Origin: Nitrospiraceae bacterium
GTDB taxonomy: Bacteria; Nitrospirota; Thermodesulfovibrionia; UBA6902
Assembly: GCA_003599275.1 (NCBI GenBank)
Contig: QZJG01000015.1
Span: 1-64,000, forward strand
DNA: 64,000 bases
Direction: 5' to 3'
The notes beneath the pieces are model-generated. The model did no database searches. It had not been told where the DNA came from and saw only the letters and a program-made list of their open reading frames with translations. This document shows positions 433-29,918 of this stretch, piece by piece. A program made the translations under genes and the position numbers. Position 1 is the first letter of the stretch. Every line of letters starts with the position of its first letter.

Positions 433-479
433 TATCGTTATATCTCTCCTTCCTATTCACTTTTCACTATTCACTGCCT

Positions 480-1253: not shown

Positions 1254-1258
1254 CTGTC

Positions 1259-2011: not shown

Positions 2012-2013
2012 TA

Positions 2014-2802: not shown

Positions 2803-2853
2803 TTTTTCCTCCTATGTTACTTTTATCTCTTTATTCTCTGCTATTAATTCTTA

Positions 2854-3561: not shown

Positions 3562-3726
3562 ATTCTTCCTTATGCAAACACAATGCCAGAGAATTCTGAC
3601 AGAAATCCCTGAATAACATTTATCTTACTTGTTGATTTATCAACTGATATTATTTGCCAGATACTTTTTTTCATAGTCCCGTTCTCTATATGGCAGGAAA
3701 ATTATTCCTACAGGAAAATATCTTCC

Positions 3727-3894
3727 CTATATCCTGATGTCTATTATTCCCTTCCTGATAATGTCCTGCTTCTCTTCTTCCCGTTTTTTTTCCTTCTCGT
3801 TCTTCTGTTCATTTTTTTTCTTGTTCATGGCCGGTTCCCGTTCCTTCTTTACCTCCGGTATTCCGTATGTATTGCCAAGTCCTTCAATCGCCAT
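3727..3894 (-). CDS. Small Lys/Glu-rich hypothetical protein (55 aa) between fliA and flgF
   Basis: Read by eye on the minus strand: MAIEGLGNTYGIPEVKKEREPAMNKKKNEQKNEKEKKREEEKQDIIRKGIIDIRI*, co-oriented in the operon gap; not in the supplied ORF track. Confidence 0.5.
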   Translation of the reverse strand: MAIEGLGNTYGIPEVKKEREPAMNKKKNEQKNEKEKKREEEKQDIIRKGIIDIRI

Positions 3895-3912
3895 GGTAAT
3901 GCCTCAATGGCC

Positions 3913-5459: not shown

Positions 5460-6574
5460 TATACGCTCCCCGTTCTTAAGATAAGATTAGTCAATCTTTT
5501 ACTGTCAACAAATTCAATATTGCCCGGTACCCTCTGTCCTGTTGTAATATAGGCAACCGGTTTCTGATATATGCGACAGAGGTTATATATCGCTCCCAGC
5601 TTCACTGCCTCATCAGTCTTTGTAAATGCCATGTAATCCACAGGCAGCGATTTGTAATATTTATGAGTGTCCACGAGAAAGCTGCAGTCGCTTGATGCGC
5701 TCAGCAGCAGCTGGGTTTCAATAGGCATGCCCATTTCATATATATTTTTCAGATTGCTGATATACTCGGCATCTCTCGGATTCTGACCTGTTGTGTCTAC
5801 CAGTATTAAATCCCTGTCAGAAAATCTGCCGACGCTTTTTCTGAAGCTCTCCCTGTTTGCGACTATGTCCAGAGGAATACCTATCATTCGTGAATAAATC
5901 CGTATCTGTTCCGCGGCCCCTATCTTATATGTATCAATGCTGATCATCGCCACCTTTTTCCCTTCCTTTATGGCCATTGATGCAAGCTTGGCTAATGTAG
6001 TCGTCTTGCCCGAGCCGGTCGGTCCGATGAGCATCGTTATTCGCCTGTTGTCCTTTGCAGATATGTCCCGAATGTTTCTGAAAGTACTTCTGTCGGTCCT
6101 TGATATATTAAGATCATCAGTCATGACGGTTTCAATCTCCTCTATAGCGCCGGCCCTTTCGACAAGCTTCAGGGCAAATTCGTCATTAATTGATTTTTCC
6201 CTCAGAAAATGAAATATGCTCCTTCTTTCCTCAGGCATCCTGAATTCGAAACCGCTGTTCTTCATTGACTCAATATAGGCTCTCAGACTCTTTATGTCCT
6301 GCTGGAGCCCGGCTAAATCACCTGAGCGGTCCTCAGTTGACATGCGCGGCTGAACTTCCTTTGCTCTTTCAATTTTGTCTGTTTTTACTTCAACAACCTG
6401 GTCCTTCGCAATGCTTCCGTCAATGTCATAATCAATAGCAGCCGTGACTTCCACATAGGGCTTCAGGCCCTTTTTATCTTCTGACGAGAGGATGACGGCA
6501 TCAGGACCAAGCTCTTTCTTTACAAGTGAAAGGGCCTCCCTGAAATTTTTTGCACGTATTGTCTTAATTTTCAT
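5459..6574 (-). CDS. flhF: SRP-like GTPase FlhF
   Basis: GPTGSGKTTTLAKLA, DTTGQNPRD; between flhA and flhG. Confidence 0.94.
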   Translation of the reverse strand: MKIKTIRAKNFREALSLVKKELGPDAVILSSEDKKGLKPYVEVTAAIDYDIDGSIAKDQVVEVKTDKIERAKEVQPRMSTEDRSGDLAGLQQDIKSLRAYIESMKNSGFEFRMPEERRSIFHFLREKSINDEFALKLVERAGAIEEIETVMTDDLNISRTDRSTFRNIRDISAKDNRRITMLIGPTGSGKTTTLAKLASMAIKEGKKVAMISIDTYKIGAAEQIRIYSRMIGIPLDIVANRESFRKSVGRFSDRDLILVDTTGQNPRDAEYISNLKNIYEMGMPIETQLLLSASSDCSFLVDTHKYYKSLPVDYMAFTKTDEAVKLGAIYNLCRIYQKPVAYITTGQRVPGNIEFVDSKRLTNLILRTGSV

Positions 6575-8594
6575 ACTTCACCATCCCTCTGATATCGAGA
6601 TCTGTTTTTGAAACAATTTCTGCACTTGAAAGTACTACAAATGAAGATGATATCCTTTCAACTATCTTCCTGATATACTTTCTGATATTTGCGGAACAAA
6701 GGATTATCGGTTGTGCCCCCTTAAGCTTGCCGGAAGACAGAATCACCTCAATACTCTTCACAAGCCTGTTAATCACATCCGGCGTGACACCCCCTCCTTC
6801 AGCCTGAGACAGGAGCTTTTCATATCTGGGGTCAAGCGTAAATACTGTCAGCTTTCCCTGATCATTCAGATACTGTCTGGTAATGGTCCTTGAAAGGGCC
6901 TGCCGGACATATTCAGTCAGGGTTTCCGGGTCCTTTACATTCGGGGAGTAGTCAAGCAGGGTTTCGAAAATGGTCATAATGTCTTTAATAGACACTCTTT
7001 CTTTCAAAAGGTTCTGCAATACGCGCTGCACGGCGCCAAGGGTCAGGCTTCCCGGTATTAATTCTTCAATAATCTTGGGATATGTCTTTGAAACATTGTC
7101 CAGCAGTTTCTGGGTCTCACTCCTGGTCAGCAGTTCCCATGAATATTCCCTTATAAGTTCAGTAATATGCGTGCCTATAACAGTCGCGTTATCAACAACC
7201 ATGTATCCGGAAAGCTGGGCGTTCTCCACTTCCTTCTCATCAATCCAGTAAGCCGGAAGTCCGAACGCAGGTTCCTTGGTCGGAATCCCGTCAATTTTCT
7301 CCGCATTGCCAGAGGCCACTGCGAGCCAGCTGCCCATCATTACCTCGCCCCTTGCAATCTCAATGCCCCTTATCAGAAAACTGTACTCATGTGGTCTCAG
7401 CTGCAGATTGTCCTTAATGTGGATCGGGGCCACGACAAAACCGAGTTCCGTTGCGAGCTGTCTTCTCATGGCCTTTATTTTTCCGAGCAGTTCTCCATTG
7501 ACCGAGTCTACCAGAGGAATAAGTCCGTAACCAATCTCAAGGCTAAGCGGGTCCAGTTCAAGATAGGACTCGATTTTAGTTTCCTCCCTGGCTGCCTCAG
7601 ATGGCATTGGTGCAACTTCTTCCTCAGCCGGTGACTTTGTTATGATATATCCCATTCCTCCGGCTATTGCCGATACAAGGAAAAAAGGTATATGCGGAAG
7701 ACCAGGTACAATACCAAGCAGCATTAAGACGCCTGAAACCGTGAAAAGGGACTTTGGATTTATCAGGACCTGGCTGGTTATGTCCTTGCCCATGTTGCTC
7801 TCTTTTCCTGCACGGCTGACAACAATACCCGCAGCCGTAGACACCAGAAGCGCCGGAATCTGTGACACAAGACCGTCACCGATGGTAAGGATCGTATATG
7901 TAGTGGCAGCATCCAGCAAAGGCATGCCTTTTTGCAGAGCACCGATAATAAGTCCGCCTACTATATTAATAGCTGTGATTATCAGACCGGCAATCGCGTC
8001 GCCTCTTATGAATTTGCTCGCACCATCCATCGATCCGTAATAGTCGGCTTCCTGTGCAATGATTTCCCTGCGCTGACGTGCCTCTTTTTCATCGATAAGA
8101 CCGGAGTTAAGGTCCGCATCAATGGCCATCTGTTTGCCGGGCATTGCGTCGAGTGTAAACCTTGCAGCAACCTCTGCTATTCTTCCTGATCCCTTCGTGA
8201 TAACGACAAAATTGACAATTACCAGAATAAGGAAAATGATAATTCCGACTGCATAGTCGCCACCGACTACAAAATTTCCGAAAGATTTAACGACCTCCCC
8301 AGCCGAGTCCACTCCCTCATGACCTTTCAAAAGTATCAACCTGGTGGTTGCAACATTAAGCGCCAGCCTGAACAAAGTCGTTATCAGGAGCAGGGTCGGA
8401 AGGACTGAAAAATCAAGCGGCCTCTTAATATAGACAGCTGTAACAAGTATCGTTATTGATAGTGATATGGAAAGTGTAAGTAGTATATCAAGAAGAAACG
8501 GCGGCATCGGCAGGAGCATAACGCCTATGATTGCAACCAGTATAAGGGCAACTAATACATCTTCTCTCTTGTTAAGCATTGCCAGCAGTTTCAT
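6564..8594 (-). CDS. flhA: Flagellar export apparatus protein FlhA
   Basis: 676 aa; FlhA/InvA family N-terminal TM region and cytoplasmic domain. Confidence 0.96.
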   Translation of the reverse strand: MKLLAMLNKREDVLVALILVAIIGVMLLPMPPFLLDILLTLSISLSITILVTAVYIKRPLDFSVLPTLLLITTLFRLALNVATTRLILLKGHEGVDSAGEVVKSFGNFVVGGDYAVGIIIFLILVIVNFVVITKGSGRIAEVAARFTLDAMPGKQMAIDADLNSGLIDEKEARQRREIIAQEADYYGSMDGASKFIRGDAIAGLIITAINIVGGLIIGALQKGMPLLDAATTYTILTIGDGLVSQIPALLVSTAAGIVVSRAGKESNMGKDITSQVLINPKSLFTVSGVLMLLGIVPGLPHIPFFLVSAIAGGMGYIITKSPAEEEVAPMPSEAAREETKIESYLELDPLSLEIGYGLIPLVDSVNGELLGKIKAMRRQLATELGFVVAPIHIKDNLQLRPHEYSFLIRGIEIARGEVMMGSWLAVASGNAEKIDGIPTKEPAFGLPAYWIDEKEVENAQLSGYMVVDNATVIGTHITELIREYSWELLTRSETQKLLDNVSKTYPKIIEELIPGSLTLGAVQRVLQNLLKERVSIKDIMTIFETLLDYSPNVKDPETLTEYVRQALSRTITRQYLNDQGKLTVFTLDPRYEKLLSQAEGGGVTPDVINRLVKSIEVILSSGKLKGAQPIILCSANIRKYIRKIVERISSSFVVLSSAEIVSKTDLDIRGMVKYEN

Positions 8595-8673
8595 ATCAGC
8601 ATACTCCTGTCACAGATTGAATTATTCAGTGAATTCATTCTCTTTTCTGGTTCCTGCAGCCACAGACAGCGGT

Positions 8674-9711
8674 TCATAATCTCCCTTTCAATTTGTAAAT
8701 ATACGCAAGTATCCGGGCAACGGCAACATACAGCCCTTCCGGTATGAACGCATTCAGCTCCAGTTTAAAAAGCGCCCTTGCAATCGGTTTGTCTTCAATA
8801 ATAGGTATACCGTGTTCCCTTGCGATCTCTTTTATCTTTTCAGCGACAATATTTGCACCTTTAGCCACTATTCTTGGTGCAGGCATAACTTTGTCTTCAT
8901 ATCTGATTGCAATGGCCAGATGAGTCGGGTTCGTTATGATCACTGTAGCAGTCGGCACCTCCTGCATCATGCGCTTTCTTGCAGCTGCCCTCTGTGCACT
9001 TCTGATCCTGGATTTAATAATCGGGTCCCCTTCAGACTCCTTGGACTCCTCTTTCACTTCCTGCTTGCTCATCTTCAATGACTTCTCATATTGCCATTTA
9101 TCAATGAAATATCCGATAATCGCTACGACCATGTAATAGGCAAAGGCAATTATAATGGCATCCATTATAAGTTTGGTCGATACCTTTACCAGTTCATTCA
9201 TTTCCATTGCTGTAAGACTGGGAAGTACTTTTAAGTCTTTATTGATTATGTAATAAACAAGCCACCCCCCGACTGAGAACTTCAGAAGGCTTTTTAATAG
9301 TTCTATGAGTCCTTTTGTTGAAAATATCCTGCCCATTCCCTGAACAGGATTGAGTTTGGACATCTCAAACTTAAGAGGCTTCAGTACGATACCATCCTGC
9401 ATAGCTGAGGCAAGCAGGGCCAGAACCACGGATACAAGGAAAAAAGGAGCAACAATTTTCACTCCCTGCATAATCGCTATACGGGATACATGCAGAGGGT
9501 CTGTCCCGTATTTCAGACTCAGCATTCCGCCTGTCATACTGGCCAGACTCATGAACACCTGCTGCCCTCCGAAATAAAATATCATGATGATTCCACCCAT
9601 CGTAACCGTTGATGTAAGGTCTTTGCTCCTCGCGATCTGGCCCTTTTCCCTTGCCTTCTGCTTTTTTCGGGGTGTGGCCTGCTCAGTTTTTTCCTGAAAA
9701 TCATCTGCCAT
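8674..9711 (-). CDS. flhB: Flagellar export apparatus protein FlhB
   Basis: 345 aa; NPTH autocleavage motif (ATVIITNPTHLAIAIRY). Confidence 0.96.
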   Translation of the reverse strand: MADDFQEKTEQATPRKKQKAREKGQIARSKDLTSTVTMGGIIMIFYFGGQQVFMSLASMTGGMLSLKYGTDPLHVSRIAIMQGVKIVAPFFLVSVVLALLASAMQDGIVLKPLKFEMSKLNPVQGMGRIFSTKGLIELLKSLLKFSVGGWLVYYIINKDLKVLPSLTAMEMNELVKVSTKLIMDAIIIAFAYYMVVAIIGYFIDKWQYEKSLKMSKQEVKEESKESEGDPIIKSRIRSAQRAAARKRMMQEVPTATVIITNPTHLAIAIRYEDKVMPAPRIVAKGANIVAEKIKEIAREHGIPIIEDKPIARALFKLELNAFIPEGLYVAVARILAYIYKLKGRL

Positions 9712-9743
9712 TTTTAACTCTTAACTCCTAACTCTTAACTCTT

Positions 9744-10514
9744 TCATCCCTTTGCCATCATGAGAAGCCTCACCATCTCTCCTCTGAGGTCGCTGAAGCT
9801 TATTCCAAGGACATGTTCAAAAACAGGGATGCTCAATATCATCAGCATTATCCCGAGAAATATGTTCAGCGGTAATGCAACAAAAAATATATTCATCTGC
9901 GGGGCCACCTTGTACAAAAAACCCGACAGCAGCTGGACAATTAAAAGCCCTACCATGACAGGCGCTGCTATCTTTATCGCCATCACAAAAAAAGCACTCA
10001 CCATAGAAACAACTGCAGGCAGCAGAGGGGCAATATTCATTTTTCCTGCAGGCAGCAGTTCAAAGCTTTTCACAAAGACAAAAATTAGATCGTGGTGCGC
10101 ATTCACTACAAGAAACATCAGCATTGTAATAATGCCGTAAATCTCTGATACCAGGGTGTCCTGCCCAACTTCAGGATTAAAAACCTGTGCCATTGAGAGA
10201 CCCATTATATAACTCATAAAGGTACCCGCCATATTCACTGCCAGAAACACCAGTCTGACTGCAAACCCCAGCGTCATGGCTATAATGATCTCTTTAACGA
10301 CCAAAATGAAGATGCTGTTTTCCGCAATCACAAAGTTTACGACAGGTGTCAATAGCAATGAAATAAAAACCGCCAGCCCCATCCTGAATTGAGGAGGCAT
10401 CTGTTTACCTCCAATCACAGGAAGAAAACTGATAAAAATGCTGGTCCTGAGCAGGACAAACAAAAAGTTGGTTATATATCCGGAAACTGCATTTATGTTC
10501 ATGTCAACTGTCAT
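9744..10514 (-). CDS. fliR: Flagellar export protein FliR
   Basis: 256 aa polytopic membrane protein in fliP-fliQ-fliR-flhB order. Confidence 0.93.
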   Translation of the reverse strand: MTVDMNINAVSGYITNFLFVLLRTSIFISFLPVIGGKQMPPQFRMGLAVFISLLLTPVVNFVIAENSIFILVVKEIIIAMTLGFAVRLVFLAVNMAGTFMSYIMGLSMAQVFNPEVGQDTLVSEIYGIITMLMFLVVNAHHDLIFVFVKSFELLPAGKMNIAPLLPAVVSMVSAFFVMAIKIAAPVMVGLLIVQLLSGFLYKVAPQMNIFFVALPLNIFLGIMLMILSIPVFEHVLGISFSDLRGEMVRLLMMAKG

Positions 10515-10543
10515 ATATCACCATTTCATTACTGATTCAGCTT

Positions 10544-10813
10544 TCATTTCACATATGCCGGTATCTGTGTTATAAGGTTTGTTGTAAAGGTGATCAGCTT
10601 TTCCGACATCCAGGGCATAAGAATAAACAGACATCCAAATACAACCAGCATTTTCGGTACGAATGTCAGTGTAAATTCCTGTATCTGTGTAACAGACTGG
10701 AACAATCCTACAATAAGACCTACTACCAGACCGGTCAGTAGCGGCGGTCCTGCAATGAACAGCACAACTTTAAACATTTCAGTCGTTATTCCGTTGATCG
10801 TATCTATAGTCAT
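10544..10813 (-). CDS. fliQ: Flagellar export protein FliQ
   Basis: MTIDTINGITTEMFKVVLFIAGPPLLTGLVVGLIVGLFQSVTQIQEFTLTFVPKM; start trimmed from the ORF track. Confidence 0.94.
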   Translation of the reverse strand: MTIDTINGITTEMFKVVLFIAGPPLLTGLVVGLIVGLFQSVTQIQEFTLTFVPKMLVVFGCLFILMPWMSEKLITFTTNLITQIPAYVK

Positions 10814-11625
10814 TAAAAGCTCCTCATCAGAGAACCTATAATCAGGTTCCACCCGTCAACAAGTACAAATAACAGCAGCTTAAAGGGAAGCGATATCATT
10901 ACAGGTGGAAGCATCATCATCCCCATACTCAGCAGAATGCTTGCTATAACCATGTCCACTATCAGGAATGGCAGAAAGAGTAGAAAACCGATTTCAAAAG
11001 CGGTCTTCAGTTCACTTATGGCAAAGGCCGGTATCAATACGCCCATTGTCAGTTCTTCTGGCTTTTCCGGAACAGGTTTCTTGGCGAGGCTCGCAAATAA
11101 AGCTATGTCTTTCTGTCTCGTCTGCTTAAGCATAAACTCCCTCAACGGAGGTACTGCCTCATCAATTGCTTCTCCGAAAGAGACTTCTTCCTGCAGATAT
11201 GGTGTCACCGCTTTTTCATTTATAACATCAATGGTAGGTGACATTACAAAGAAAGTCAGGAACAGAGCAAGCCCTATCACAACAGGATTTGGAGGAACTG
11301 TCTGCCCTCCAAAGGCATGCCGCAAAAAAGAAAGCACTACAACGATACGAGTAAAAGAGGTGACCATAATCAAGACAGCCGGCAAAAAGGAAAGAAAGCT
11401 GATTATTAGGAATGTCTCTATTAAAGGATTATTAATGTCCCTGAAATCGATAGCATGCGCAGGAGATGCAGCAGCACATATTGTAATTAAGAGAGAAATG
11501 ATGGTTATAACCGGTCTGGAAAAAAGTGTCGATAATAATTTATGCATCATGCACTTCAAATGACGGTTTCCGGTACCGGTCCTGGCATTATCAAATATTT
11601 TCGAGGTGCGATCAGTATTATTCAA
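10813..11625 (-). CDS. fliP: Flagellar export protein FliP
   Basis: FTRIVVVLSFLRHAFGGQTVPPNPVVIGLALFLTFFVMSP typical of FliP; true start may be internal (MHKLL...). Confidence 0.95.
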   Translation of the reverse strand: MNNTDRTSKIFDNARTGTGNRHLKCMMHKLLSTLFSRPVITIISLLITICAAASPAHAIDFRDINNPLIETFLIISFLSFLPAVLIMVTSFTRIVVVLSFLRHAFGGQTVPPNPVVIGLALFLTFFVMSPTIDVINEKAVTPYLQEEVSFGEAIDEAVPPLREFMLKQTRQKDIALFASLAKKPVPEKPEELTMGVLIPAFAISELKTAFEIGFLLFLPFLIVDMVIASILLSMGMMMLPPVMISLPFKLLLFVLVDGWNLIIGSLMRSF

Positions 11626-11933
11626 GTTCTTTGTGCTCCTATATTCATGAGCTTTCCAAATTTACCCTGAAATCCCTCTGTCTCCGGCAAATCAATATCC
11701 TCATCTTTAAATACCCGTAACAACCGGATATCATTGGGAGTGAGCCCCAGTATGAGGACCTCTTTTCCTATTTTCAATGCGGCCACCCCTTTTTTAGGTC
11801 CAAATGGCTGATAGCTTACAACACTCATAAGACCAAACCTGTTATGTTTTTTCTTCATCACAAATCCGGCAGCCACTATAAGAAGGACCACAAAGAGAAG
11901 GGCTGCAGCCACCTGTAAATAAGTTCCTGTCAT
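11622..11933 (-). CDS. fliO: Flagellar biosynthesis protein FliO
   Basis: One N-terminal TM, small basic domain, between fliN and fliP. Confidence 0.75.
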   Translation of the reverse strand: MTGTYLQVAAALLFVVLLIVAAGFVMKKKHNRFGLMSVVSYQPFGPKKGVAALKIGKEVLILGLTPNDIRLLRVFKDEDIDLPETEGFQGKFGKLMNIGAQRT

Positions 11934-12289
11934 TTCAGTTGTGTCAGCCTTTCTGTGGGGCTGATAATATCTGTAAGCCTCACACCGAATTTTTCATTAA
12001 CAACCACTACCTCGCCCCTTGCTATGAGCCTGCTGTTAGCGAGTATCTCCATGGGTTCGCCTGCAAGTTTTTCCAGTTCAACGACCGAACCCTGGCCAAG
12101 CTGCAGGAGTTCTTTTATCAGCATCCTTGAAGATCCCAGCTGTACAGTAATTTCGACCGGGATATCGAGGAGAAATTCAATGTCCCTTTCAGCTGAAGAC
12201 CTGTTGTCATCCTTCAGGTCTCCGAATTCCGGATCCTGCACATTAACCCCCATTTTGGCCTTTTCCTGCGATTTGTCCTTTTCTTCCAT
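11930..12289 (-). CDS. fliN: Flagellar motor switch protein FliN
   Basis: SpoA domain: LLDIPVEITVQLGSSRMLIKELLQLGQGSVVELEKLAGEPMEILANSRLIARGEVVVVNEKFGVRLTDI. Confidence 0.95.
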   Translation of the reverse strand: MEEKDKSQEKAKMGVNVQDPEFGDLKDDNRSSAERDIEFLLDIPVEITVQLGSSRMLIKELLQLGQGSVVELEKLAGEPMEILANSRLIARGEVVVVNEKFGVRLTDIISPTERLTQLK

Positions 12290-12384
12290 AAAATACCTCC
12301 AAATTTGCTACGCGTTTAACTTCAGGTCCAATCCTTTCACCTCAATCAATAGATTTGATGATAAGCAAAACATAACAGACTTCT

Positions 12385-13359
12385 TCATTCAATGACCCCC
12401 GTTAATTTAACGGCCTGGTTGCCCTTGCTGAAGCCCGGAGTGCCCTTGAATTTTGGCAGGCCTTCTACATAGAGAACAAGTTCGTCATTTATCGATTTGC
12501 CGAGATTTATAACATTACCTTTTTTGAATTTCATTATGTCCCCGAATGTCAGTGACAGGCGGCCGATCTCAGCTGATATTCTTACATTGGTCTGTCTCAA
12601 TATATTCTTCATAATCAGGGACCATCTCTGGTCTGTTTCAAACTTATCACCCTGGATACCTGAATAAAGCTTTTCCTTTACAGGTTCAATCGTGGAATAC
12701 GGCACACAAAAGAACATACGGCCTGCAAAATCTTCTATTTCGATCATTACTTCGATATTGATTACTATTTCAGCTGGCGTTACAATCGTCACAAATTGCG
12801 GGTTAATTTCAGAACTCACATATTCCGGTAATATTGGTGCTATACCTCCCCATGAGACTGCAAGGTCCTTCAAGGCTATATTTACTACTTTTTGAATCAC
12901 CCTCTGCTCAATCGTGGTAAAGGCCCTTCCTTCGGACTTGATATTCTGGGCATTGGCCCCGCCAAAAAAGAACTCGATAAAAGCAAAAACAAGCGGGGCC
13001 TCAAGTACAAGCAGTGAGTAACCCTTGAGGGGGTCCATTTTAAAGATATTTATGCTGGAAGGTACCGGGATAGTTTTAATGAAATCGCCAAATTTAATTA
13101 TCTCGACATTCTGAATGCTTATATCAACGAACTTCATAATAAGGTTTGAGACTGAATTCCTGAAAAGCCTTGCAAAGGACTCATTAGCCATTTCGAGCCC
13201 GGGCATTCTGCCGCGTATAATTCGCTCCTGGTTTGTAAAGTCAAAGGGGCGTACGCCGGCAAGTATTTTGCCTTTCGCTTCTTCGGTGTCGATCTCCCCT
13301 GATGCCACACCTTTAAGCAGGGCATCGACTTCATCCTGTGAAAGTATCTTGTCGCTCAT
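12385..13359 (-). CDS. fliM: Flagellar motor switch protein FliM
   Basis: LSQDEVDALLKGV N-terminus and FliM/SpoA domains. Confidence 0.95.
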   Translation of the reverse strand: MSDKILSQDEVDALLKGVASGEIDTEEAKGKILAGVRPFDFTNQERIIRGRMPGLEMANESFARLFRNSVSNLIMKFVDISIQNVEIIKFGDFIKTIPVPSSINIFKMDPLKGYSLLVLEAPLVFAFIEFFFGGANAQNIKSEGRAFTTIEQRVIQKVVNIALKDLAVSWGGIAPILPEYVSSEINPQFVTIVTPAEIVINIEVMIEIEDFAGRMFFCVPYSTIEPVKEKLYSGIQGDKFETDQRWSLIMKNILRQTNVRISAEIGRLSLTFGDIMKFKKGNVINLGKSINDELVLYVEGLPKFKGTPGFSKGNQAVKLTGVIE

Positions 13360-13841
13360 TGCATTACAAACTCTGTAAAGAAAAGGTTCTTAAACATGTC
13401 CTTGTCCATCCCCATCACCTGATTGGCCCTGAAAAGCAGCTCATCCTTCAGCTGAAATTTGCCTTCAGGACTTGATATGGAATTCAATGACTTGCTGCTT
13501 ACCAGTGTGATAATGGTATCTCTCAGCTGTGGAGTTTTTTCTTTTACTGTTTCACTGAGCTTTTGATCGGATACCTCAAGTTGAATAGTGACTTTCAGAT
13601 ATCTGCCGTGATCAGCGAGATTCAGGACAAACGGATCAAGTGCAACAATCGCAGTTTTCAGATCAGATTTCTCCTCCTTTGTTGTATCATCGCCTTTTTT
13701 GCCGGCCAGTAATTTATACCCTGCGAACCCCCCTGCCCCAAGAACCACTACAGCTGCCACAATAATTATTATCAGCGTCTTGTTCCCTTTTTTTGGCGGG
13801 GCAGGTGCCTCTTCCTTCAGTTCATCTTTTTCATCTGCCAT
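13356..13841 (-). CDS. fliL: Flagellar basal body-associated protein FliL
   Basis: Single TM plus FliL domain, next to fliM. Confidence 0.88.
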   Translation of the reverse strand: MADEKDELKEEAPAPPKKGNKTLIIIIVAAVVVLGAGGFAGYKLLAGKKGDDTTKEEKSDLKTAIVALDPFVLNLADHGRYLKVTIQLEVSDQKLSETVKEKTPQLRDTIITLVSSKSLNSISSPEGKFQLKDELLFRANQVMGMDKDMFKNLFFTEFVMQ

Positions 13842-16672: not shown

Positions 16673-17452
16673 GTGGGTAAAAACGGAACGAAGGCAATCA
16701 TACCAGATGACATCATCAGAGAGGAAGCGATAAGGGCCATAGAGGGCGATCTGCCCTATGAACGGACGCTATATATAAATGAAGTCCGGTACCTCATGAA
16801 ACACACGGCGGAAACGATACTTGAGATCGGTAAGCGGCTGCTTATTATTCGGGAGAAAGAGGGTTACCGGCAATTTGCCGGTATTGTTGAGGAAGAAATT
16901 GGATTATCTCGCACTACAGCCTATCGCTTTATGCATTGTGCCGCCAATGCCGAGAAATTTCCCCGGATCGACTTGTCCCAAATTGGGACGAGTTCCAAAG
17001 TCTACGCACTCCTCGAGGCACCAGAGGAAGAATTGGCAAAATTCGAGCAGCTCGGCCTCTTTGCCGGGAAAGACATGGATGAACTTGAGCGCATGTCCGT
17101 CAAGGAACTCCGCTCAACGGTCAAAAAACTCCGCGAAAAAGCGGAAAAGGTCATCGGCAAACAGGTATCAAAGCTGGAGGCCAAGGCCAAGGCGCTTGAA
17201 GAGGAAAATAAAAAACTCAGGATACAGAACAGCCTCAATGATAAGAGCGCCACTGCCTTTAAAGACGCTTACGAAACCGCCAATGACCTGCTGGACCAGG
17301 CGATCACAATGCTCAATAATGCCAACAGCTCCCCGATGGTCTCGGCAGTCCTGGACGATGAAAAAACCCTCAAGAAATACACCAACATGGCAACCCTCTT
17401 TGAAAAGAAGTTTAAGGGCTGTTTAAACATCATGAAAGAGGCCTTATCATGA
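16673..17452 (+). CDS. DUF3102-like phage protein
   Basis: IGKRLLIIREKEGYRQFAGIVEEEIGLSRTTAYRFMHCAANAEKFP; upstream of the transposase. Confidence 0.65.
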   Translation: MGKNGTKAIIPDDIIREEAIRAIEGDLPYERTLYINEVRYLMKHTAETILEIGKRLLIIREKEGYRQFAGIVEEEIGLSRTTAYRFMHCAANAEKFPRIDLSQIGTSSKVYALLEAPEEELAKFEQLGLFAGKDMDELERMSVKELRSTVKKLREKAEKVIGKQVSKLEAKAKALEEENKKLRIQNSLNDKSATAFKDAYETANDLLDQAITMLNNANSSPMVSAVLDDEKTLKKYTNMATLFEKKFKGCLNIMKEALS

Positions 17453-19482
17453 CCGGCGACCTCGTGACACTGAAACAGCTCGCAGAGCTTGAAGGTGTGC
17501 CATACGACACTATCAAAAAGGCGTTTCAGCGTCAGTCATTCAGCCTCGTCCACTACCAGGGCGAGCAGCCGCTTGTCAGGATCATAGATCCGGCAATATC
17601 AGAGCACGCAAAGGCACGTTATTTTAATCCCACAGTCCCTGAGCCTGCAGGGACCTATCCCACGGAGGCGCAGGGGGACGTGATGAACCCCTCTGCGCCT
17701 TCCCCTCATAGGAAAGATGGCATTATATCCCCCGCACAGCTAAAAGACTGGCAGCGCGACTGCATGACCGCGCGGCTCGCGATATTACAGGAGATTGATA
17801 CCATCGCCGCAGAACATAAACTATCGGCCAATAAGGCCATAAAACGCTTTATTAATTTAATAGAGAAAAAACACCTTGCGCCGCATATCCAGCAGGCAAT
17901 ATCACAGGCAAATCATAGAGACGGATCAGAGAGGACACTCAGCTGGCAAACCATATATCGCTGGATGAAACTCCGCAGAGAATGCGGCGCTCTCGGGCTC
18001 GCACCGGAGGACACAGAGCAGCTCTATATACCGGCGTGGGCAGAGCGGTTTCTCTCTATATACAGAGTGCCGAGCAAGCCGTCCATTCCGCAGACACTTG
18101 AGCTTATGGGAGCAGATGCCCCGCCATACTGGCAGGCAGTGCGCTTCCTTAAAAAATACTCCCGTCTCGACATACAGCGGGGCCGGATGTCCGGCAGTGA
18201 ATTGCGAAGTGTCAAGGGCTACACCATCAGAGACAAGAGCCATTTAATGCCGCTTGATGTAGTAGTGGCCGACGGGCATTCCTACAAGGCAAAAGTCGCG
18301 CACCCGGTCCACGGCAAGCCTTTTAACCCCGAGGTCGAGGGCATCATAGACGCTGCAACGCGCGTATGTATCGGCTGGTCCACCGGCCTGGCCGAGTCCT
18401 CTATGGTAGTGGCCGACGCCATCAGGCACGCTGTCACGGTCAATGAAAAGAAGGCCATTGGCGGACTGTTCGCCATCTTCTACAGCGACCAGGGCGCGGG
18501 CAACAAGGCGCATGCCATATCTGACGAACTGACCGGCATCCTCGCGCGGATCGGCGCGACACCAAAGACCGGCATCCCCGGCAATCCGCAGGGCCGGGGC
18601 ATCATCGAAAAGGCGCAGTACTCCATCTGGATACGCGGGGCAAAACAGCTCCCGACCTTCACCGGCACCGGCATGGACAGCCTGTCATATAGAAAGACCA
18701 TGAAGATCGTCGATAAGGACATCAAGGAAAAGGGGACATCCCGGCTGCTCATTTCATGGGGACAATTCCTTGAATACTGCGAGGAGACCGTAGCGGCATA
18801 TAATAACCGCCCACATTCAGCCCTACCGAAGATAGTCGATGCGCAGAGTGGGTACCGCAGGCGTATGACCCCTATTGAAATGTGGAACAGGTACATCGAG
18901 ACCGGCTGGAAGCCGATGCTCCTCGATCCGGCAGAGATTAAGGACCTCTTCCGCCCGCAGGTAAAATGCATCGCCCGCAATGCAATGGTCAGGGTATTCG
19001 GCAATACCTATTACAACAACCTCCTTGAGCACTATCACGGCGAGGAAGTGTTTGTGAATTACGACATACACGACCCGAAAGTCGTGTGGGTCAGAGACCA
19101 GCAGCAGCGGCTGATATGTGAGGCGATCTTTGAGGCAAATAAGCGGCAATTCTTCCCTGTATCGGTTATCGAGCAGGCGAGAGAGAAGAGATTAAAGGGC
19201 AGGATAAAGCGGCTTGAGAGCCAGATTGACGATGCAAAGATAGAGGCATATGGCATCGAGGAGATCACCATACCCGAGGAGGCATTGATCGTGCCGACAG
19301 ATGCGATCGAAGATGTCACTTTAGATACGAGTGAAGATCAGATATTTGAGGAAGCCTGGCAGCGGTATGAATATTTAATGCAGCAGGCGGAGATATCCAC
19401 GGACGACAGGCAATGGATTAAGGAATATATGACATCGAATGAATACAGGAGCATCTATGGAAAAGAGGAAGCAACAGGATAA
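17449..19482 (+). CDS. Mu-type transposase A
   Basis: 677 aa; rve/DDE-type core (LDVVVADGHSY..., IFYSDQGAGNKAHAIS..., GRGIIEKAQYSIW) and Mu-transposase C-terminal region. Confidence 0.93.
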   Translation: MTGDLVTLKQLAELEGVPYDTIKKAFQRQSFSLVHYQGEQPLVRIIDPAISEHAKARYFNPTVPEPAGTYPTEAQGDVMNPSAPSPHRKDGIISPAQLKDWQRDCMTARLAILQEIDTIAAEHKLSANKAIKRFINLIEKKHLAPHIQQAISQANHRDGSERTLSWQTIYRWMKLRRECGALGLAPEDTEQLYIPAWAERFLSIYRVPSKPSIPQTLELMGADAPPYWQAVRFLKKYSRLDIQRGRMSGSELRSVKGYTIRDKSHLMPLDVVVADGHSYKAKVAHPVHGKPFNPEVEGIIDAATRVCIGWSTGLAESSMVVADAIRHAVTVNEKKAIGGLFAIFYSDQGAGNKAHAISDELTGILARIGATPKTGIPGNPQGRGIIEKAQYSIWIRGAKQLPTFTGTGMDSLSYRKTMKIVDKDIKEKGTSRLLISWGQFLEYCEETVAAYNNRPHSALPKIVDAQSGYRRRMTPIEMWNRYIETGWKPMLLDPAEIKDLFRPQVKCIARNAMVRVFGNTYYNNLLEHYHGEEVFVNYDIHDPKVVWVRDQQQRLICEAIFEANKRQFFPVSVIEQAREKRLKGRIKRLESQIDDAKIEAYGIEEITIPEEALIVPTDAIEDVTLDTSEDQIFEEAWQRYEYLMQQAEISTDDRQWIKEYMTSNEYRSIYGKEEATG

Positions 19483-19542: not shown

Positions 19543-20235
19543 TTGAAAAGGGTATTTGTCAATACGGAGAATGTAAAGAGTTTTAAAGCGGCGATCAGTA
19601 GATTGCAGAGCAGGGAAGAACAAGTGCCTGGTATGGCACTAATATACGGGGAGCCGGGACTCGGCAAAACAAAGACCGTTGCCTCATGGTGCGCGCAGAA
19701 TTGTAATAACTCGTTTTTCATCCGGACTAAGAAACTCATGACAGGCCGATGGCTCCTTGAGGAACTGGTCTCGGAACTTGGAGAGCAGGCCGATAAGCGG
19801 GTCGCGGATCTCTATAGACAAGCCAGGACTATCCTGATGGAGAGGCAATGCACGGTCTTTTTTGATGAGGTCGACTATCTGTGTCATGATGCGCGGGTCA
19901 TCGAGACGCTGAGAGACTTACACGATGACACAGGCACTCCCATTGTAATGGTAGGGATGGCAGAGGCCGAGAAGAAGCTCTCCCGTTACAGACATCTCTA
20001 TGACAGATTTTCAGAGGTAGTTAAATTCCAGGACCTCACCGAGATGGATGTCCGTACGATAGCAGACGAAATGTGCGACGTCAAAGTCAGCGACGATGCC
20101 ACGCGATATATTCATTCACTGGGCGGACGTTTCCGAAAGATCGTAATCCAGCTATATCGATGTGAATCCATAGCAAAAAAGAACTCTCTAAAAGAAGTTA
20201 CGGCCTCTCATATTCAGAACGGGAGGCGTAAATGA
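19543..20235 (+). CDS. Mu B-like AAA ATPase transposition protein
   Basis: Walker A YGEPGLGKTKTVASW, Walker B VFFDEVDYL; follows MuA; apparent TTG start. Confidence 0.92.
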   Translation: MKRVFVNTENVKSFKAAISRLQSREEQVPGMALIYGEPGLGKTKTVASWCAQNCNNSFFIRTKKLMTGRWLLEELVSELGEQADKRVADLYRQARTILMERQCTVFFDEVDYLCHDARVIETLRDLHDDTGTPIVMVGMAEAEKKLSRYRHLYDRFSEVVKFQDLTEMDVRTIADEMCDVKVSDDATRYIHSLGGRFRKIVIQLYRCESIAKKNSLKEVTASHIQNGRRK

Positions 20236-24903: not shown

Positions 24904-25495
24904 TTGGCCCTTTAAAAAACGCAAGACAACCGGGAAGGTAACTCCTCCGACGCCGTGGCCGGAGACTCCAGATGCTGATCCTACATGGGATGCCTTCCGC
25001 CGGGCGGACGGGGATTGGTGCTGTAAGGTTTTTCAGCGGATGATTAAAGACGGAGTACCGCACATAACTGTCCAGACGCCGGAGAGGGACGTGATTGTGA
25101 TGGCGATTAGATATTGTCCGAGGTGTGGGAGGAAGTTGTAAATATGTCGAGCAAAAGACGACTACGAAGGAAGGAATGTGAAAGCAAGAAAAAATATTTG
25201 ACGCTTGATCATGCTTACTCTCATGTTCGGCTGTTAAAAAAGAAGGGCGACATTGTTAAGCCCTATAAATGCAGTTTTTGTGGAGCATGGCACTTGGGTC
25301 ATCAGCGTATGAAGGCGATGGGGATAACTAATACATGGAAGCACATAGCGAGATAACATCTGGATGAGGGATGCCCGAAGACAGCAAATGAATAATATCA
25401 ACAATAAAACATCAATAGCAGTGGAATGCCGGAAACAAGACCTGTGCAGGGCATTCCTCTCGATCTATTGGTTATCCTTTTTTTGGAGGTAGACA

Positions 25496-25954
25496 GTGAT
25501 AGCTATTAAAAAGAGCCAGACAGCAGACACAAGATCGTGTGACTTTTCAACGGTCACAAAGGAACAACTTGAGGCAAGCAGTTATCAGCATATAGGTGAC
25601 GTGAATAAGGGAATATTCTTCTTCAAGACCTTACTTACTGATGCCGGTTCAAAACATGATAACGATAAAATAACAAAGCTTGACCATTTCCATGCTGACT
25701 TTATCACAGGATTCCAGCAGACAGGCTGGTGGGACAATCACCGGAAGATAACACGGCACCATCTAACCGCCGAGGACGGGATCCCCGAAGATGTGAATCT
25801 CATTGACGTGCTGGAAATGATAGCAGATTGCGTTATGGCTGGCATGGGCAGAACCGGGAGTGTCTACCCTCTAACCATCAATCCTGACGTGTTGAAACGT
25901 GCAGTAGATAACACAATGGAGTTATTAAAAAGCCAGATAGTCGTAGAAGGATAA
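25496..25954 (+). CDS. DUF5662-like phage protein
   Basis: DAGSKHDNDKITKLDHFHADFITGFQQTGWWDNHRKITRHHLTAEDGIPEDVNLIDVLEMIADCVMAG. Confidence 0.65.
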   Translation: MIAIKKSQTADTRSCDFSTVTKEQLEASSYQHIGDVNKGIFFFKTLLTDAGSKHDNDKITKLDHFHADFITGFQQTGWWDNHRKITRHHLTAEDGIPEDVNLIDVLEMIADCVMAGMGRTGSVYPLTINPDVLKRAVDNTMELLKSQIVVEG

Positions 25955-25977
25955 CAAAGAATTGAGGGAACCAGACC

Positions 25978-26322
25978 ATGAAGGATAACTGTATACCTAA
26001 GAAGGATACGCAAACCCGACACGTCGGCAACGCTAAAAATGCGCCCTCTGGTCTGGTTTCCTCTCCAATGTCTGGTTATATGAACAAATCTCCATATGCA
26101 GTAACGTACATCTGTGAAAAGTGTGGAGAGCCATATACCTGCAACGAGTGGGATGTAATACAGGTCTTGAATCAATATGGCTTTGGCTTCTCTGGAACCG
26201 ACACGGTAAAACTGTGCCTCGATTGTTTCGAGGGAATGTGTCTCTGGTGGGAAGCATATTTTGATGACCCAGAAAATCAAGCCGAGTTTAAATTTATCAT
26301 GGACATGGGGTTACACATATAA
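25978..26322 (+). CDS. Phage zinc-ribbon-like hypothetical protein
   Basis: CEKCGEPYTC...CLDCFEGMC. Confidence 0.45.
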   Translation: MKDNCIPKKDTQTRHVGNAKNAPSGLVSSPMSGYMNKSPYAVTYICEKCGEPYTCNEWDVIQVLNQYGFGFSGTDTVKLCLDCFEGMCLWWEAYFDDPENQAEFKFIMDMGLHI

Positions 26323-26685
26323 CACACAAGTTGAGTGACGAGGCGCATGAAAAATAATAACTGGCATAAAGGCGATTTGAGCGTGAACGGGATGCACAGG
26401 CAGAAAAGTGACCTGTGCGACTCGTTCAGCTCGAACGCTTTGTTATACACGGCCTTCTTTATCAGCCACTTGACAGCCCTGGCGCTTTCGTTATATTCTG
26501 AAAGCGTTCAGTGTTTGAGGGCCATCCCTCCGGCCATCGTGGTAACACGGAAAGCGAGGTGTTTTAGTTTTTACGGGCTAAGTCAGCCCGAGTGTTCCAC
26601 TAACCGCGAGGCGTGGACGGCTCTCAAACGCCGGAACAGCACTCGGGTCATTTTTTTGCCCGGTAATGTTCAAAGTTTGAGGAGG
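26317..26685 (+). promoter_or_regulatory. Cassette A non-coding module: attC-like palindrome, promoter, attenuator-like leader, RBS
   Basis: Nearly duplicated at 27991-28354; ATATAAC...GTTATAC ends (26317/26442); TTGACA(26470)-N16-TATATT(26492); terminator-like stem CCCGAGTGTTCC...GGAAC-AGC-ACTCGGG followed by TTTTTTT (26587-26657); RBS GGAGG at 26681-26685. Confidence 0.65.
26587..26657 (+). terminator. Attenuator-like intrinsic terminator, cassette A
   Basis: 12-nt stem with 3-nt bulge followed by T7; conserved in cassette B at 28255-28325. Confidence 0.55.
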
Positions 26686-26691
26686 TATGTC

Positions 26692-26952
26692 ATGTGCATA
26701 CACAAGCCTGAAATCCGTCCGGGTCTCGGAGGGATAATTGATCACATCGATGTAATCAACGAAGTTAAGGATAAACTCACGCCTATCTTTTCCATGATAA
26801 TCTTTGCGGAGGAGCTTAACCCTCTTTGCGGAGAACTGCTTACCAATAAAGACTTGAGCTATCTCGGACTGCTTATGCGGGATATGCTCGATGAAGCATG
26901 GAAAGCGACAGACGGAATATATGAAATTTTTAAGAAGGAGGTAAAAGCATGA
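26692..26952 (+). CDS. Small hypothetical protein, cassette A first ORF (86 aa)
   Basis: Preceded by GAGGAGGT; MCIHKPEIRPGLGGIIDHIDVINEVKDKLTPIFSMIIFAEELNPLCGELL...; the ORF-track start at 26335 is probably an artefact. Confidence 0.6.
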   Translation: MCIHKPEIRPGLGGIIDHIDVINEVKDKLTPIFSMIIFAEELNPLCGELLTNKDLSYLGLLMRDMLDEAWKATDGIYEIFKKEVKA

Positions 26953-27647
26953 AAGAGATAACGACAATGAACAAAGAGACAGTTCCGATTCTTCTTCTGA
27001 GAGACAATGAGTATGAGGTTTACGGGTACAGGCAGCAGCTTTGCTGTGAAACCGAATACTTAGGTAGGGCACTGGAATATAAGAACCCGGCAGCGAGATT
27101 GAGAGAACTAAAAAGCGACAATCTGGACATGTTTGAGGGCCATGTTTTCCCCGTAAATATGGCCGAGGTTTCGTCGGTTTCAAACCTACGAAACCCCAAG
27201 GGCGGAAGACCCTCAAATTTGTGGGATGAAGATGCGATTGTGGCCGCCTTCATGCTGGCTAAAAAACCCTCTGTTAAGCGGCGCGGACAGAAACTAATTG
27301 CCCGTCTCCGCAAGATGCACGACCAGAAGTTTATCATGACGCAGACCCAGCACGAAAACTACTGGTTCGGCGGCGCGCGCCGGACGCACTGGAAGGAAGT
27401 CCGTGAGCGTGCCCTGAAAGGTGAAAGCTACAGGGACATTGCAGATGCCATGCAGATAAAACGCGACCGGGTATCAAGGGCGGTAAGGTCAATGAGCAGG
27501 GTCGGACTGATAGACCCGCATGAAATCGCCGAAGTCCAGAAGGGGCCTGCGAGCAAGGCAGCGCGTGAGTTGGCTATGACATGGGGACAGCCGACGCTGT
27601 TTGATTATTTACAGGAGGGCACCGATGAAAAAAGAAACCACATGTGA
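26949..27647 (+). CDS. Antirepressor/Bro-N-like phage regulatory protein, cassette A
   Basis: MKEITTM... N-terminal domain (CCETEYLGRALEYKNPAARLRELKSDNLDMFEGH) plus C-terminal HTH (YRDIADAMQIKRDRVSRAVRSMSRVGLI). Confidence 0.6.
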   Translation: MKEITTMNKETVPILLLRDNEYEVYGYRQQLCCETEYLGRALEYKNPAARLRELKSDNLDMFEGHVFPVNMAEVSSVSNLRNPKGGRPSNLWDEDAIVAAFMLAKKPSVKRRGQKLIARLRKMHDQKFIMTQTQHENYWFGGARRTHWKEVRERALKGESYRDIADAMQIKRDRVSRAVRSMSRVGLIDPHEIAEVQKGPASKAARELAMTWGQPTLFDYLQEGTDEKRNHM

Positions 27648-27945
27648 ACGAAAAGACCGGGAAGCTATAGAGTGGATTGAAAAAGAGGCCGCGAAGTTTG
27701 AACAAATGACCCCTGCGGAGAAAGAAGAAGAGCTGCGCTTTCGGCAGAAGATGTCGATGAGGATGCCGGAGGCTTATCAGGAGTTGGAACGGCAGCTTGA
27801 AGAAATGGAAGAAGAGGGCGAAGCGGTGATTCGTTTTCTTGCGGCAATGGCGTTCAAGTATCCCGTCACCAAAGAGGATATACTTGCTTTTCTCAAAGAA
27901 CGGGGCAACGAGCATTTCTACACGGCTCTGCAAAAGGCGCACTAA
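27625..27945 (+). CDS. Phage hypothetical protein
   Basis: Acidic 106 aa; ATG with upstream GGAGGG. Confidence 0.5.
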   Translation: MKKETTCERKDREAIEWIEKEAAKFEQMTPAEKEEELRFRQKMSMRMPEAYQELERQLEEMEEEGEAVIRFLAAMAFKYPVTKEDILAFLKERGNEHFYTALQKAH

Positions 27946-27966
27946 AGGTAAAGACGTAAACAATAC

Positions 27967-27988
27967 GGGGAGGGCGTGAACCCTCCCC
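27967..27988 (+). terminator. Cassette-end hairpin A
   Basis: GGGGAGGG-cgtgaa-CCCTCCCC, repeated at 29250-29271; no U-tract. Confidence 0.45.
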
Positions 27989-27990
27989 GT

Positions 27991-28354
27991 GTATAACACA
28001 CAAGTTGAGTGACGAGGCGCATGAAACATAACAGCAAGCATAAAGACGATTTGAGGGTGAACGGGATGCACAGGCAGAAAAGTGTCCTGTGCGACTCGTT
28101 CTACTCGAACGCTTTGTTATACACGGCCTTCTTCCGCAGCCACTTGACAGCCCTGGCGCTTTCGTTATATTCTGAAAGCGTTCAGTCTGTAAGGGCCCTC
28201 TCTGGCCTCCGCAGGAATGCGGATAGGAGGTTTTTAGTTTTAGGGCTAAGTCAGCCCGAGTGTTCCACTAACCGCGAGGCGTGGACGGTACCTAAAGGCC
28301 GGAACAACACTCGGGTCTTTTTATTGCCCGGTAATGTTCAAACTTTTAGGAGGT
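27991..28354 (+). promoter_or_regulatory. Cassette B non-coding module: attC-like palindrome, promoter, attenuator-like leader, RBS
   Basis: GTATAAC(27991)...GTTATAC(28116); TTGACA(28144)-N16-TATATT(28166); terminator-like 28255-28325; AGGAGG RBS. Confidence 0.65.
28255..28325 (+). terminator. Attenuator-like intrinsic terminator, cassette B
   Basis: CCCGAGTGTTCC...GGAAC-AAC-ACTCGGG then tctttttatt. Confidence 0.5.
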
Positions 28355-28359
28355 GCTTT

Positions 28360-28599
28360 ATGAGCACAGAATTCCGCTGGTACCAACCGCAAACACCAAG
28401 AGAGGCCGCAGACGCTATTGAAAACGTCAAGGCTATTGTCCGCTTTCTCTGTGACAACCTCACGCAGGAAGGATTTAAGCCCGGTTATTCGTACTCACTG
28501 ACAGAAGAAGGCGTAAATGGGCTTTATCAAATCTATAGTCTTATCGAGGATGTCCTCGATGTTTCAAACACCATATTAGTAAAGGAGGTAAGAGCATGA
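28360..28599 (+). CDS. Small hypothetical protein, cassette B first ORF (79 aa)
   Basis: Preceded by AGGAGGTGCTTT; MSTEFRWYQPQTPREAADAIENVKAIVRFLCDNLTQEGF... Confidence 0.6.
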   Translation: MSTEFRWYQPQTPREAADAIENVKAIVRFLCDNLTQEGFKPGYSYSLTEEGVNGLYQIYSLIEDVLDVSNTILVKEVRA

Positions 28600-29234
28600 A
28601 AGAGATCACGACAATGCCGGTGAAAGTGTCAAACGGCAACAAAGCGATTGAAGTCTATGAATATGAAGGCGGCTTCTGTATGACTACGGAGTTTATCGGG
28701 AGATGCCTTGGTTATGCCCATCCCGGACAAAGCATGAGGAAGCTTTTTAACCGCAATAAAGCCGCCCTTGAACCCCATAGGTTTAGCGTCACAGTGACGC
28801 GAAACCCCCAAGGCGGAAGACCCTCGGATTTTTATGATGCAAAGGGCTGCTTAAAGGCAGCAGCTGCAGCCGGATCGTCTCAGGCTAAGAAGTTTCATGA
28901 CCGGCTTGTTGACAAGTTCGCCGAACTGGAAGCTAAGCGAATAGAGCGGATCGAGGCATATTGGTTTGCAGAGAACCGCCGTCCATGGTGGCCGGAGGTC
29001 AGAGAACGAATAATGACAGGTGAGAACTTTCGGCAGATCGCCGAGGCTATGGGACGGAGTACGGCAAGCGTAAGAAATGCCGTTCGCCGAATGATTGAGA
29101 TAGGTATCCTCCAGCCGTTGAGAGCTGCGCAAGCCCTGATTGGTACAACAAGGAAGACCGTTATCCGGTACGGTCGTAAATATATTAAAGATGATCGGCA
29201 GCTCTTTCTTTTTGATGAGCCGCAGACAACCTAA
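28596..29234 (+). CDS. Antirepressor/Bro-N-like phage regulatory protein, cassette B
   Basis: MKEITTM start, CMTTEFIGRCLGYAHPGQSMRKLFNRNKAALEPHRF, C-terminal HTH FRQIAEAMGRSTASVRNAVRRMIEIGIL. Confidence 0.6.
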   Translation: MKEITTMPVKVSNGNKAIEVYEYEGGFCMTTEFIGRCLGYAHPGQSMRKLFNRNKAALEPHRFSVTVTRNPQGGRPSDFYDAKGCLKAAAAAGSSQAKKFHDRLVDKFAELEAKRIERIEAYWFAENRRPWWPEVRERIMTGENFRQIAEAMGRSTASVRNAVRRMIEIGILQPLRAAQALIGTTRKTVIRYGRKYIKDDRQLFLFDEPQTT

Positions 29235-29249
29235 AGACGTAAACCACAA

Positions 29250-29271
29250 GGGGAGGGCGTGAACCCTCCCC
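29250..29271 (+). terminator. Cassette-end hairpin B
   Basis: GGGGAGGG-cgtgaa-CCCTCCCC; no U-tract. Confidence 0.45.
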
Positions 29272-29310
29272 GTGTATAACAACAGAATATACAAAGCACG
29301 CAAGGTGTAA

Positions 29311-29616
29311 ATGTTTAAAAAGCGAACTAACTACAGCCCAAAATTAAAAGCAATGCGCGAAGCAAAGGAGCAGATCCGGCTCAATGGGCCTGCTCCGGAT
29401 TATCCTCCGGCGCTGCCTCATCTGCGCAGGGAGATCATCGTCAGGGATTATGATTTCGGCCTGGTCGAGCACCGCATTCTCTGCTATGAGTGCGGCAGGA
29501 TCGATTGTTACCGCGTCGAGCTGGATGGTCGGCCCTGGCTGACAAAGCGCGTAGGTTGGGCGCGGCTTCTCCGGGAAGGGCTGGGGAAATTATTTTTGAG
29601 GGTGAAGGCAACATGA
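29311..29616 (+). CDS. Phage hypothetical protein
   Basis: 101 aa, stop overlaps the start of the Mor-like gene. Confidence 0.5.
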   Translation: MFKKRTNYSPKLKAMREAKEQIRLNGPAPDYPPALPHLRREIIVRDYDFGLVEHRILCYECGRIDCYRVELDGRPWLTKRVGWARLLREGLGKLFLRVKAT

Positions 29617-29918
29617 ACTGGCTCGACGACCTTAAACCGGAAGAGCTCCCTCCTCACTATCAGGAGATGGTGTCAATAATCGGGCTGGAGGCGACAATGA
29701 AGCTGGCGGAGCATTTCTCCAAACAGCCTTTTTACTTTACCGGCCTCGATGAGCTGGTCAGGAAAAAGAAAGAAGATTACATCCGAAAAAACTTCACCGG
29801 CAGCAATCATAATGCCCTTGCACGCGCGACCGGATACGGCAGGCGATGGGTCTATGCCATACTCAGTGCTACGCCGGATGATCGGCAGGCCGACCTATTC
29901 ATAGGGAAAAACTTTTAA
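29613..29918 (+). CDS. Mor/C-like middle or late transcription activator
   Basis: MNWLDDLKPEELPPHYQEMVSIIGLEATMKLAEHF...DYIRKNFTGSNHNALARATGYGRRWVYAIL resembles the Mor activator family. Confidence 0.75.
   Translation: MNWLDDLKPEELPPHYQEMVSIIGLEATMKLAEHFSKQPFYFTGLDELVRKKKEDYIRKNFTGSNHNALARATGYGRRWVYAILSATPDDRQADLFIGKNF

Follow-up and report, generated by a model that had tools for sequence, protein, structure and literature searches.

A C4-like RNA probably keeps a phage antirepressor gene off in a Mu-like prophage

Introduction

In the 64,000-nt stretch of Nitrospiraceae DNA analysed here (the window), two non-coding blocks resemble each other more closely than do the genes that follow them. 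An earlier, sequence-only reading took each block for one regulatory RNA module that stays constant while regulator genes are exchanged behind it. The question is what these blocks consist of and how they might act on the genes behind them. Several phage systems offer points of comparison. Reports of C4-type immunity RNAs concern Proteobacteria and the phages that infect them (PMC2864571, PMC5320573); C4 RNA masks the RBS in part with its b′ loop and owes its specificity to a′ (PMC5320573). IsrK of the Salmonella prophage Gifsy-1 is a trans activator whose transcript stops at a terminator of its own, and the P4 CI RNA works through transcription termination (PMC4825925). Integron cassette arrays that lack an integrase are known in other phages (PMC9892861).

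Results

The duplication is borne out by alignment. Positions 26318-26698 and 27992-28366 are 88% identical over 369 nt, gaps included, in keeping with the two similar blocks of ~360 nt first proposed. Where the first ~190 nt had been judged by eye to be ~90% identical, an ungapped stretch of 212 nt (26318-26529 and 27992-28203) reaches 92%; a second stretch of 142 nt (26557-26698 and 28225-28366) is 84% identical. Measured per 60 nt, identity is 75-95% in the blocks and ~35-60% in the coding part, short conserved patches excepted. The small ORFs downstream, said to share little similarity, give no BLASTP alignment at all. A sigma70-type promoter and an RBS with ATG ahead of the small ORF, as first described, were found in both copies. 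The promoter, TTGACA-16-TATATT on the plus strand (26470-26497 in copy 1, 28144-28171 in copy 2), has 11 of 12 consensus matches in each, the alternative being an 18-nt spacing to TATTCT. TTGACA also lies upstream of most of the homologous leaders described below.

When the block was searched against 61 related genomes, most matches spanned nt 1-142 alone, and one genome (G019) matched nt 193-368 alone, so the block splits into two elements. In each block the promoter connects an attC site to an RNA leader, a composite nature absent from the earlier reading. Its single regulatory module is thus upheld for the structured leader, which both copies have, and fails for the first ~130 nt, which form a recombination site. 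With BLASTN, the block had no match in annotated phages, and the only viral-contig match was a single contig carrying both copies.

Conservation of this kind could also reflect an overlapping protein, the objection raised with the original claim. A frame that opens within the attC site (26335 in copy 1, 28009 in copy 2) runs through the leader into the small ORF, and no stop codon interrupts it in either copy or in the G019 homologue. However, differences between the copies are spread over the codon positions as 7/7/4, and 12 of the 14 affected codons specify different amino acids. Neither the gaps that separate the copies nor those in the alignment to G019 have lengths divisible by three, which puts the conserved core in different reading frames, and the open frame has no Pfam or PHROG match. 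Given the codon pattern and the frame-breaking gaps, we reject this coding explanation as extremely improbable.

On the minus strand, each block's first part reads GTATAACAAAGCGTTC ... CTCGTCAC ... GTTATA, with complementary outer cores. The first ~130 nt are an integron attC, a DNA recombination site, and not regulatory RNA. We built a covariance model (R2) from 15 attC sites of relatives, with the window left out. R2 detected four sites in the window, all in one orientation on the minus strand, with E-values that are rough, as are those of our other home-made model (R1, below). Many of the genomes used are MAGs. Site 1, the first part of block 2 (27992-28132), has an E-value of 2e-24 and a DNA fold z of -2.8. 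Site 2, the first part of block 1 (26318-26458), has an E-value of 9e-26 and a z of -4.2, with its cores TATAAC at 26318-26323 and GTTATA near 26441. These two have paired outer cores and match attC sites from the lineage of the host. Site 3 (25950-26091) follows with 1e-17 and a z of -3.7. The weakest, site 4 (25352-25487; 4e-8), has the canonical R′′ to R′ direction on the minus strand, and its DNA fold was no better than shuffles.

On the minus strand, a lone TATAAC core at 29275-29280 stands at the array's right end; the end of repeat D3 is the same GTGTATAACA, and R2 found no attC in the window to the right of it. This core presumably marks an insertion boundary, and cassette boundaries would lie at the TATAAC cores at 25352, 25950, 26318, 27992 and 29275. 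On this sequence evidence, 25352-29280 is an array of about four cassettes without an integrase of its own, located inside a Mu-like prophage. The host genome does have an integron integrase (C57:16555-17490, TIGR02249 above the cut-off), with an attC adjoining it. Since this match lies on C57 and not on the window contig, the array does not amount to a complete integron, and a shallow search found no attI next to it. On the contigs of relatives, R2 located 35 sites, two of them truncated by contig ends, plus four weaker echoes on the opposite strand. Many of these sites form regular arrays, as on G034:C100, a contig that also has an integron integrase match exceeding the curated cut-off, and the first part of the block recurs on short contigs of relatives at cassette-like spacing.

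The prophage is recognisable by a transposase (17449-19482), a DNA transposition protein (19543-20235), Mu-type head genes and a Mor-family ORF (29490-29918). In a related phage (L028), homologues of gene 24893 and of the genes from 29311 on enclose other cargo and other attC sites. Backbone gene 29311 matched, among viral contigs, only the contig bearing both copies, and no cassette-free sister phage was found. This setting bears on a plainer account of the two units, namely tandem duplication of a phage regulatory region, with the attC-like sequences being remnants or chance and no integron recombination involved. The units do have a 5′ block, short internal patches and a 3′ hairpin in common, so they have a common ancestor, and the right boundary is marked by one lone core. 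On the other hand, their ends coincide with attC cores, two more attC-bounded units adjoin them, the attC E-values come from a model blind to the window, and the related phage has different cargo with different attC sites at the equivalent place. We regard duplication without integron recombination as distinctly unlikely, and we retain the cassette reading.

Several smaller features accompany the array. At the cores at 25352, 25950 and 26318, the TAA within ATAAC is the stop codon of the preceding plus-strand ORF, and on the plus strand the attC sites there also supply a GAGG that resembles an RBS, together with an ATG; the start of ORF 25978-26322 lies within an attC. An Rfam match to MIR2275 at 25948 proved to be the hairpin of an attC site. 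The window appears by eye, from the translations, to have host flagellar and chemotaxis genes on either side of the prophage (1-13841 and 58705-63964).

The second element of the block is a structured RNA. On the plus strand, each leader has a 63-nt core (26586-26648 in copy 1, fold z -4.0; 28254-28316 in copy 2, z -2.8) that on its own folds into a three-way junction resembling C4 RNA. In copy 1, hairpin A occupies 26597-26616, b′ 26623-26629 and a′ 26634-26638; in copy 2, b′ (CCTAAAGG) is at 28291-28298 and a′ at 28302-28306. A search with one 18-mer of the leader yielded two more homologues, one in a Nitrospirota MAG and one in a Desulfobacteraceae MAG. We seeded a covariance model (R1) with five cores, without the RBS region or the 5′ end; both window copies were in the seed, and they score 85.2 and 83.5 bits. 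R1 matched 12 of the 396 Nitrospirota genomes searched and, in the phylum to which the Desulfobacteraceae MAG belongs, 2 of 297. In an alignment of 15 cores, 96.8% of pairs are standard, and 14 of 19 pairs show changes on both sides. The covariation score over these 15 loci is 0.47 (0.13 in shuffles), and none of 500 shuffles scored as high. The covariance-model search that had been suggested for the two copies thus gave homologues with strong covariation in Nitrospirota and Desulfobacterota. Because the alignment was fitted to R1, the pairing test that follows, which stands outside the model, weighs more than the covariation.

The loop of the core is complementary to the RBS of the gene behind it. 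The target segment a2/b2 with the RBS lies at 26668-26685 (GTTCAaaGTTTGAGGAGG) in copy 1 and at 28336-28353 (GTTCAaaCTTTTAGGAGG) in copy 2, both on the plus strand. Each is predicted to be, among 15 targets, the best for its own antisense segment, at -16.4 and -15.7 kcal/mol. Across 15 leaders, the b′ loop and a′ linker pair with their own RBS region at a mean of -16.8 kcal/mol and with swapped partners at -9.7. In 13 of the 15 leaders the own partner comes out first, and in two it comes second (permutation p 5e-5, the floor of the test); the matches of the a′ linker were read by eye from the alignment. The b′ and RBS sequences change together, as in CTCAAAC/GTTTGAG in window copy 1, CTGTAA/TTACAG in G151, CTATATG/CATATAG in G083 and TCCTGTTGA/TCAACAGGA in G389. 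The notion of one constant control element is therefore wrong for the RNA as well: its pairing loop varies jointly with the RBS it matches, so that RNA and target change as a pair. In the window, the antisense segments favour their own RBS by just ~2-4 kcal/mol, and orthogonality of the two copies is accordingly a prediction.

A second possible target, a1/b1, lies near the transcript start. In copy 1 (26506-26520, plus strand, GTTCAgtGTTTGAGG), b1 matches the b′ loop over 13 contiguous nt; in copy 2 (28180-28194, plus strand, GTTCAgtCTGTAAGG), b1 is degenerate and its own partner ranks sixth. Over 13 leaders, this 5′ copy pairs at a mean of -19.1 kcal/mol with its own partner and -13.0 with swapped ones, with four exceptions, window copy 2 among them; the segments were picked automatically, and some of these exceptions may be placement errors. 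The second target is present in window copy 1 and most homologues; the automatic test did not find it in three others.

These 5′ segments raise the alternative that the leader acts in cis alone: pairing of a1/b1 with b′ would compete with the core stem, the core and its U-tract would terminate transcription, and no small RNA would act in trans. The a1/b1:b′ pairing is a strong one in most leaders, and in full-length leader 1 taken in isolation it is predicted to win over, and exclude, the core fold. A U-rich stretch also lies 3′ of the core stem in nearly all homologues. However, the core stem encloses ~45 nt, which is unusual for a terminator, and a terminator scan did not pick it. Action in cis alone leaves unexplained both the match of the core loop to the RBS in 15 of 15 leaders and the C4-like three-way junction that presents the loop. 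As the sole mode of action we consider it fairly unlikely; cis and trans action are not mutually exclusive, and we keep the antisense reading as the main one. A terminator hairpin just 3′ of a1/b1, plausible by eye from the example of IsrK, folds no better than shuffles, and a plain riboswitch reading was demoted after the core loop proved to match the RBS. Weak Rfam matches to microRNA, snoRNA and AgrB models appear to be chance. In one homologue (L055:150-1561, G107), a group II intron stands directly 3′ of the C4-like core, and the RBS match is weak there.

Behind each leader lie two overlapping plus-strand genes. In copy 1, a small ORF of 86 aa (26692-26952), icd-like by position, overlaps through its stop (ATGA) the start of a 232-aa HTH protein (26949-27647). 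In copy 2, an unrelated small ORF of 79 aa (28360-28599) overlaps in the same way a gene for a 212-aa protein (28596-29234). The second genes, 34% identical across 206 aa, had been called antirepressor- or Bro-N-like. For copy 2 the label has some backing, from a PHROG match to anti-repressor Ant (2.6e-4), HTH similarity and a Pfam Bro-N match below the cut-off (E 0.088), but copy 1 has HTH matches alone, and its antirepressor link runs via copy 2. The label is the softest link of the functional story, the similarity being weak in the window and clear antirepressors occurring in several homologues. Genes after homologous leaders encode P22_AR_N (followed by AntA), AntA, Rha and Bro-N proteins and a resolvase-type ORF; other leaders precede small ORFs followed by larger proteins without an assigned family. 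The proposal of a structured leader ahead of exchangeable regulator genes is thus sustained, covarying homologues preceding differing small ORFs, antirepressor genes and resolvase-type genes. A tblastn search with the second ant-like ORF gave no match in phages. At L053 and L058 (G151 and G358), the C4-like RNAs precede resolvase-type (serine recombinase) ORFs and not antirepressors; the G151 ORF matches Pfam Resolvase at 4.7e-14, and the G358 call was made by eye. Both window cassettes end in the same 64-nt stretch (27935-27998 and 29218-29281) with a strong hairpin (GGGGAGGG...CCCTCCCC) that is terminator-like on the minus strand.

Discussion

We consider it likely, from sequence comparison, that a divergent C4-type antisense RNA controls the antirepressor operons in two paralogous integron cassettes whose pairing loops differ. 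The layout equals the C4-icd-ant region of P1/P7 part for part: a promoter, a1/b1, a three-stem RNA, a2/b2 and a small ORF overlapping ant. The P1 annotation has a promoter, a1, b1, C4 RNA, a2, b2 at the RBS, icd, and ant1 with a 4-nt overlap with icd. As in C4 RNA of P1/P7, b′ sits in a hairpin loop and a′ in the linker (PMC5320573). The features that define C4 recur: a closing stem around two hairpins (in the folded window cores and the covariation of 15 loci), complementarity of the b′ loop and a′ linker to a2/b2, where the following ORF has its RBS (in the permutation test on 15 leaders), and a second target, a1/b1, close to where the transcript starts, which in window copy 2 is degenerate.

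The leaders differ from C4 in core sequence (a CCCGAGTG stem and a GNRA-capped hairpin A), in the U-rich stretch 3′ of the core, in their Nitrospirota and Desulfobacterota hosts and, for the window copies, in lying within integron cassettes. The Rfam C4 model RF01695 scores P1 at 68.8 bits; it gave no match up to E 10 in the window, L042, L043 or L011 and none up to E 0.5 in ten further loci, and R1 gave the P1 C4 RNA no score. Since each model is blind to the other group, we call the leaders C4-type by architecture, and not members of RF01695; they may have arisen by shared descent or by convergence. The Rfam scan assigned no family to the leader, in line with the earlier view that no RNA class could be named, yet the architecture does resemble the C4 antisense RNA of P1/P7.

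From the computed attC sites, fold and covariation, leader-specific complementarity and gene order, we infer how such a circuit would work. On this reading, each cassette combines a promoter and a C4-type RNA with an icd-like small ORF and an ant-like gene; the attC points in the opposite direction to the genes. A three-stem RNA would form part of the transcript from the promoter, and its b′ loop and a′ linker would pair with a2/b2 in the region of the small ORF's RBS. Such antisense pairing, acting in trans, would keep the small ORF from being translated and, by way of the ATGA overlap, the antirepressor too; in this way the C4-like RNA probably keeps the antirepressor gene off, and lysogeny would be kept. 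C4 RNA is processed by RNase P to an RNA of ~77 nt. Here the antisense RNA might be released by processing or by termination at the U-rich stretch. Where intact, a1/b1 could pair with the same a′ and b′ and so compete for the antisense RNA; because the 5′ copy is predicted to hold b′ in leader 1, the mRNA may be active until a separate antisense RNA acts.

Other phage RNAs have parts of this arrangement. IsrK-orf45-anrP has repeated pairing segments around a leader RNA and a small ORF coupled to an antirepressor gene, and in P4 repeated segments (seqA/seqC) flank the immunity RNA CI (PMC4825925). Unlike in IsrK, a terminator after a1/b1 is unsupported in the window leaders. Like the integrase-less arrays of other phages, the array has several attC sites and cassettes in a phage without its own integrase (PMC9892861). 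In contrast to those arrays, two of its cassettes have antirepressor-type operons with their own antisense RNA, its genes run opposite to attC, and the host belongs to the Nitrospirota. R2 had no match in P1 or the other C4-like loci, which marks it as specific. No attC was found near the C4-like loci beyond the window, within the sequence stretches examined, so the cassette setting is so far peculiar to this phage. No C4-like core was found in the fetched host-type integron arrays, and a chromosomal source cassette is thus unsupported.

These comparisons indicate a C4-type circuit, in which RNA and target change together, for phages of Nitrospirota and Desulfobacterota. This extends C4-type phage-immunity RNA to new phyla and shows such RNA packed in gene cassettes. 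The set is invisible to the Rfam model, two of its members front resolvase-type genes, and the core alignment with R1 could seed a new RNA family. It is conceivable, though we hold this only tentatively, that C4-type RNA, target and antirepressor travel as one attC cassette, and that the Mu-like phage gains, loses and stacks such circuits via the host integrase. Just as speculatively, cassette circuits of this kind might carry distinct antisense specificities, so that integrons would supply phages with exchangeable immunity control. With two copies of differing loops lying in integron cassettes, cassette capture of phage immunity specificity is directly testable.

A type IV CRISPR-like set occupies the same accessory zone of the related phage (L028:9543-12711, G004:C30) and is flanked on one side by attC sites. 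It comprises Csf2-like (PADLOC 1.4e-46), weak Csf1-like, PAPS-reductase (CysH-like) and Csf3-like (5.6e-36) genes.
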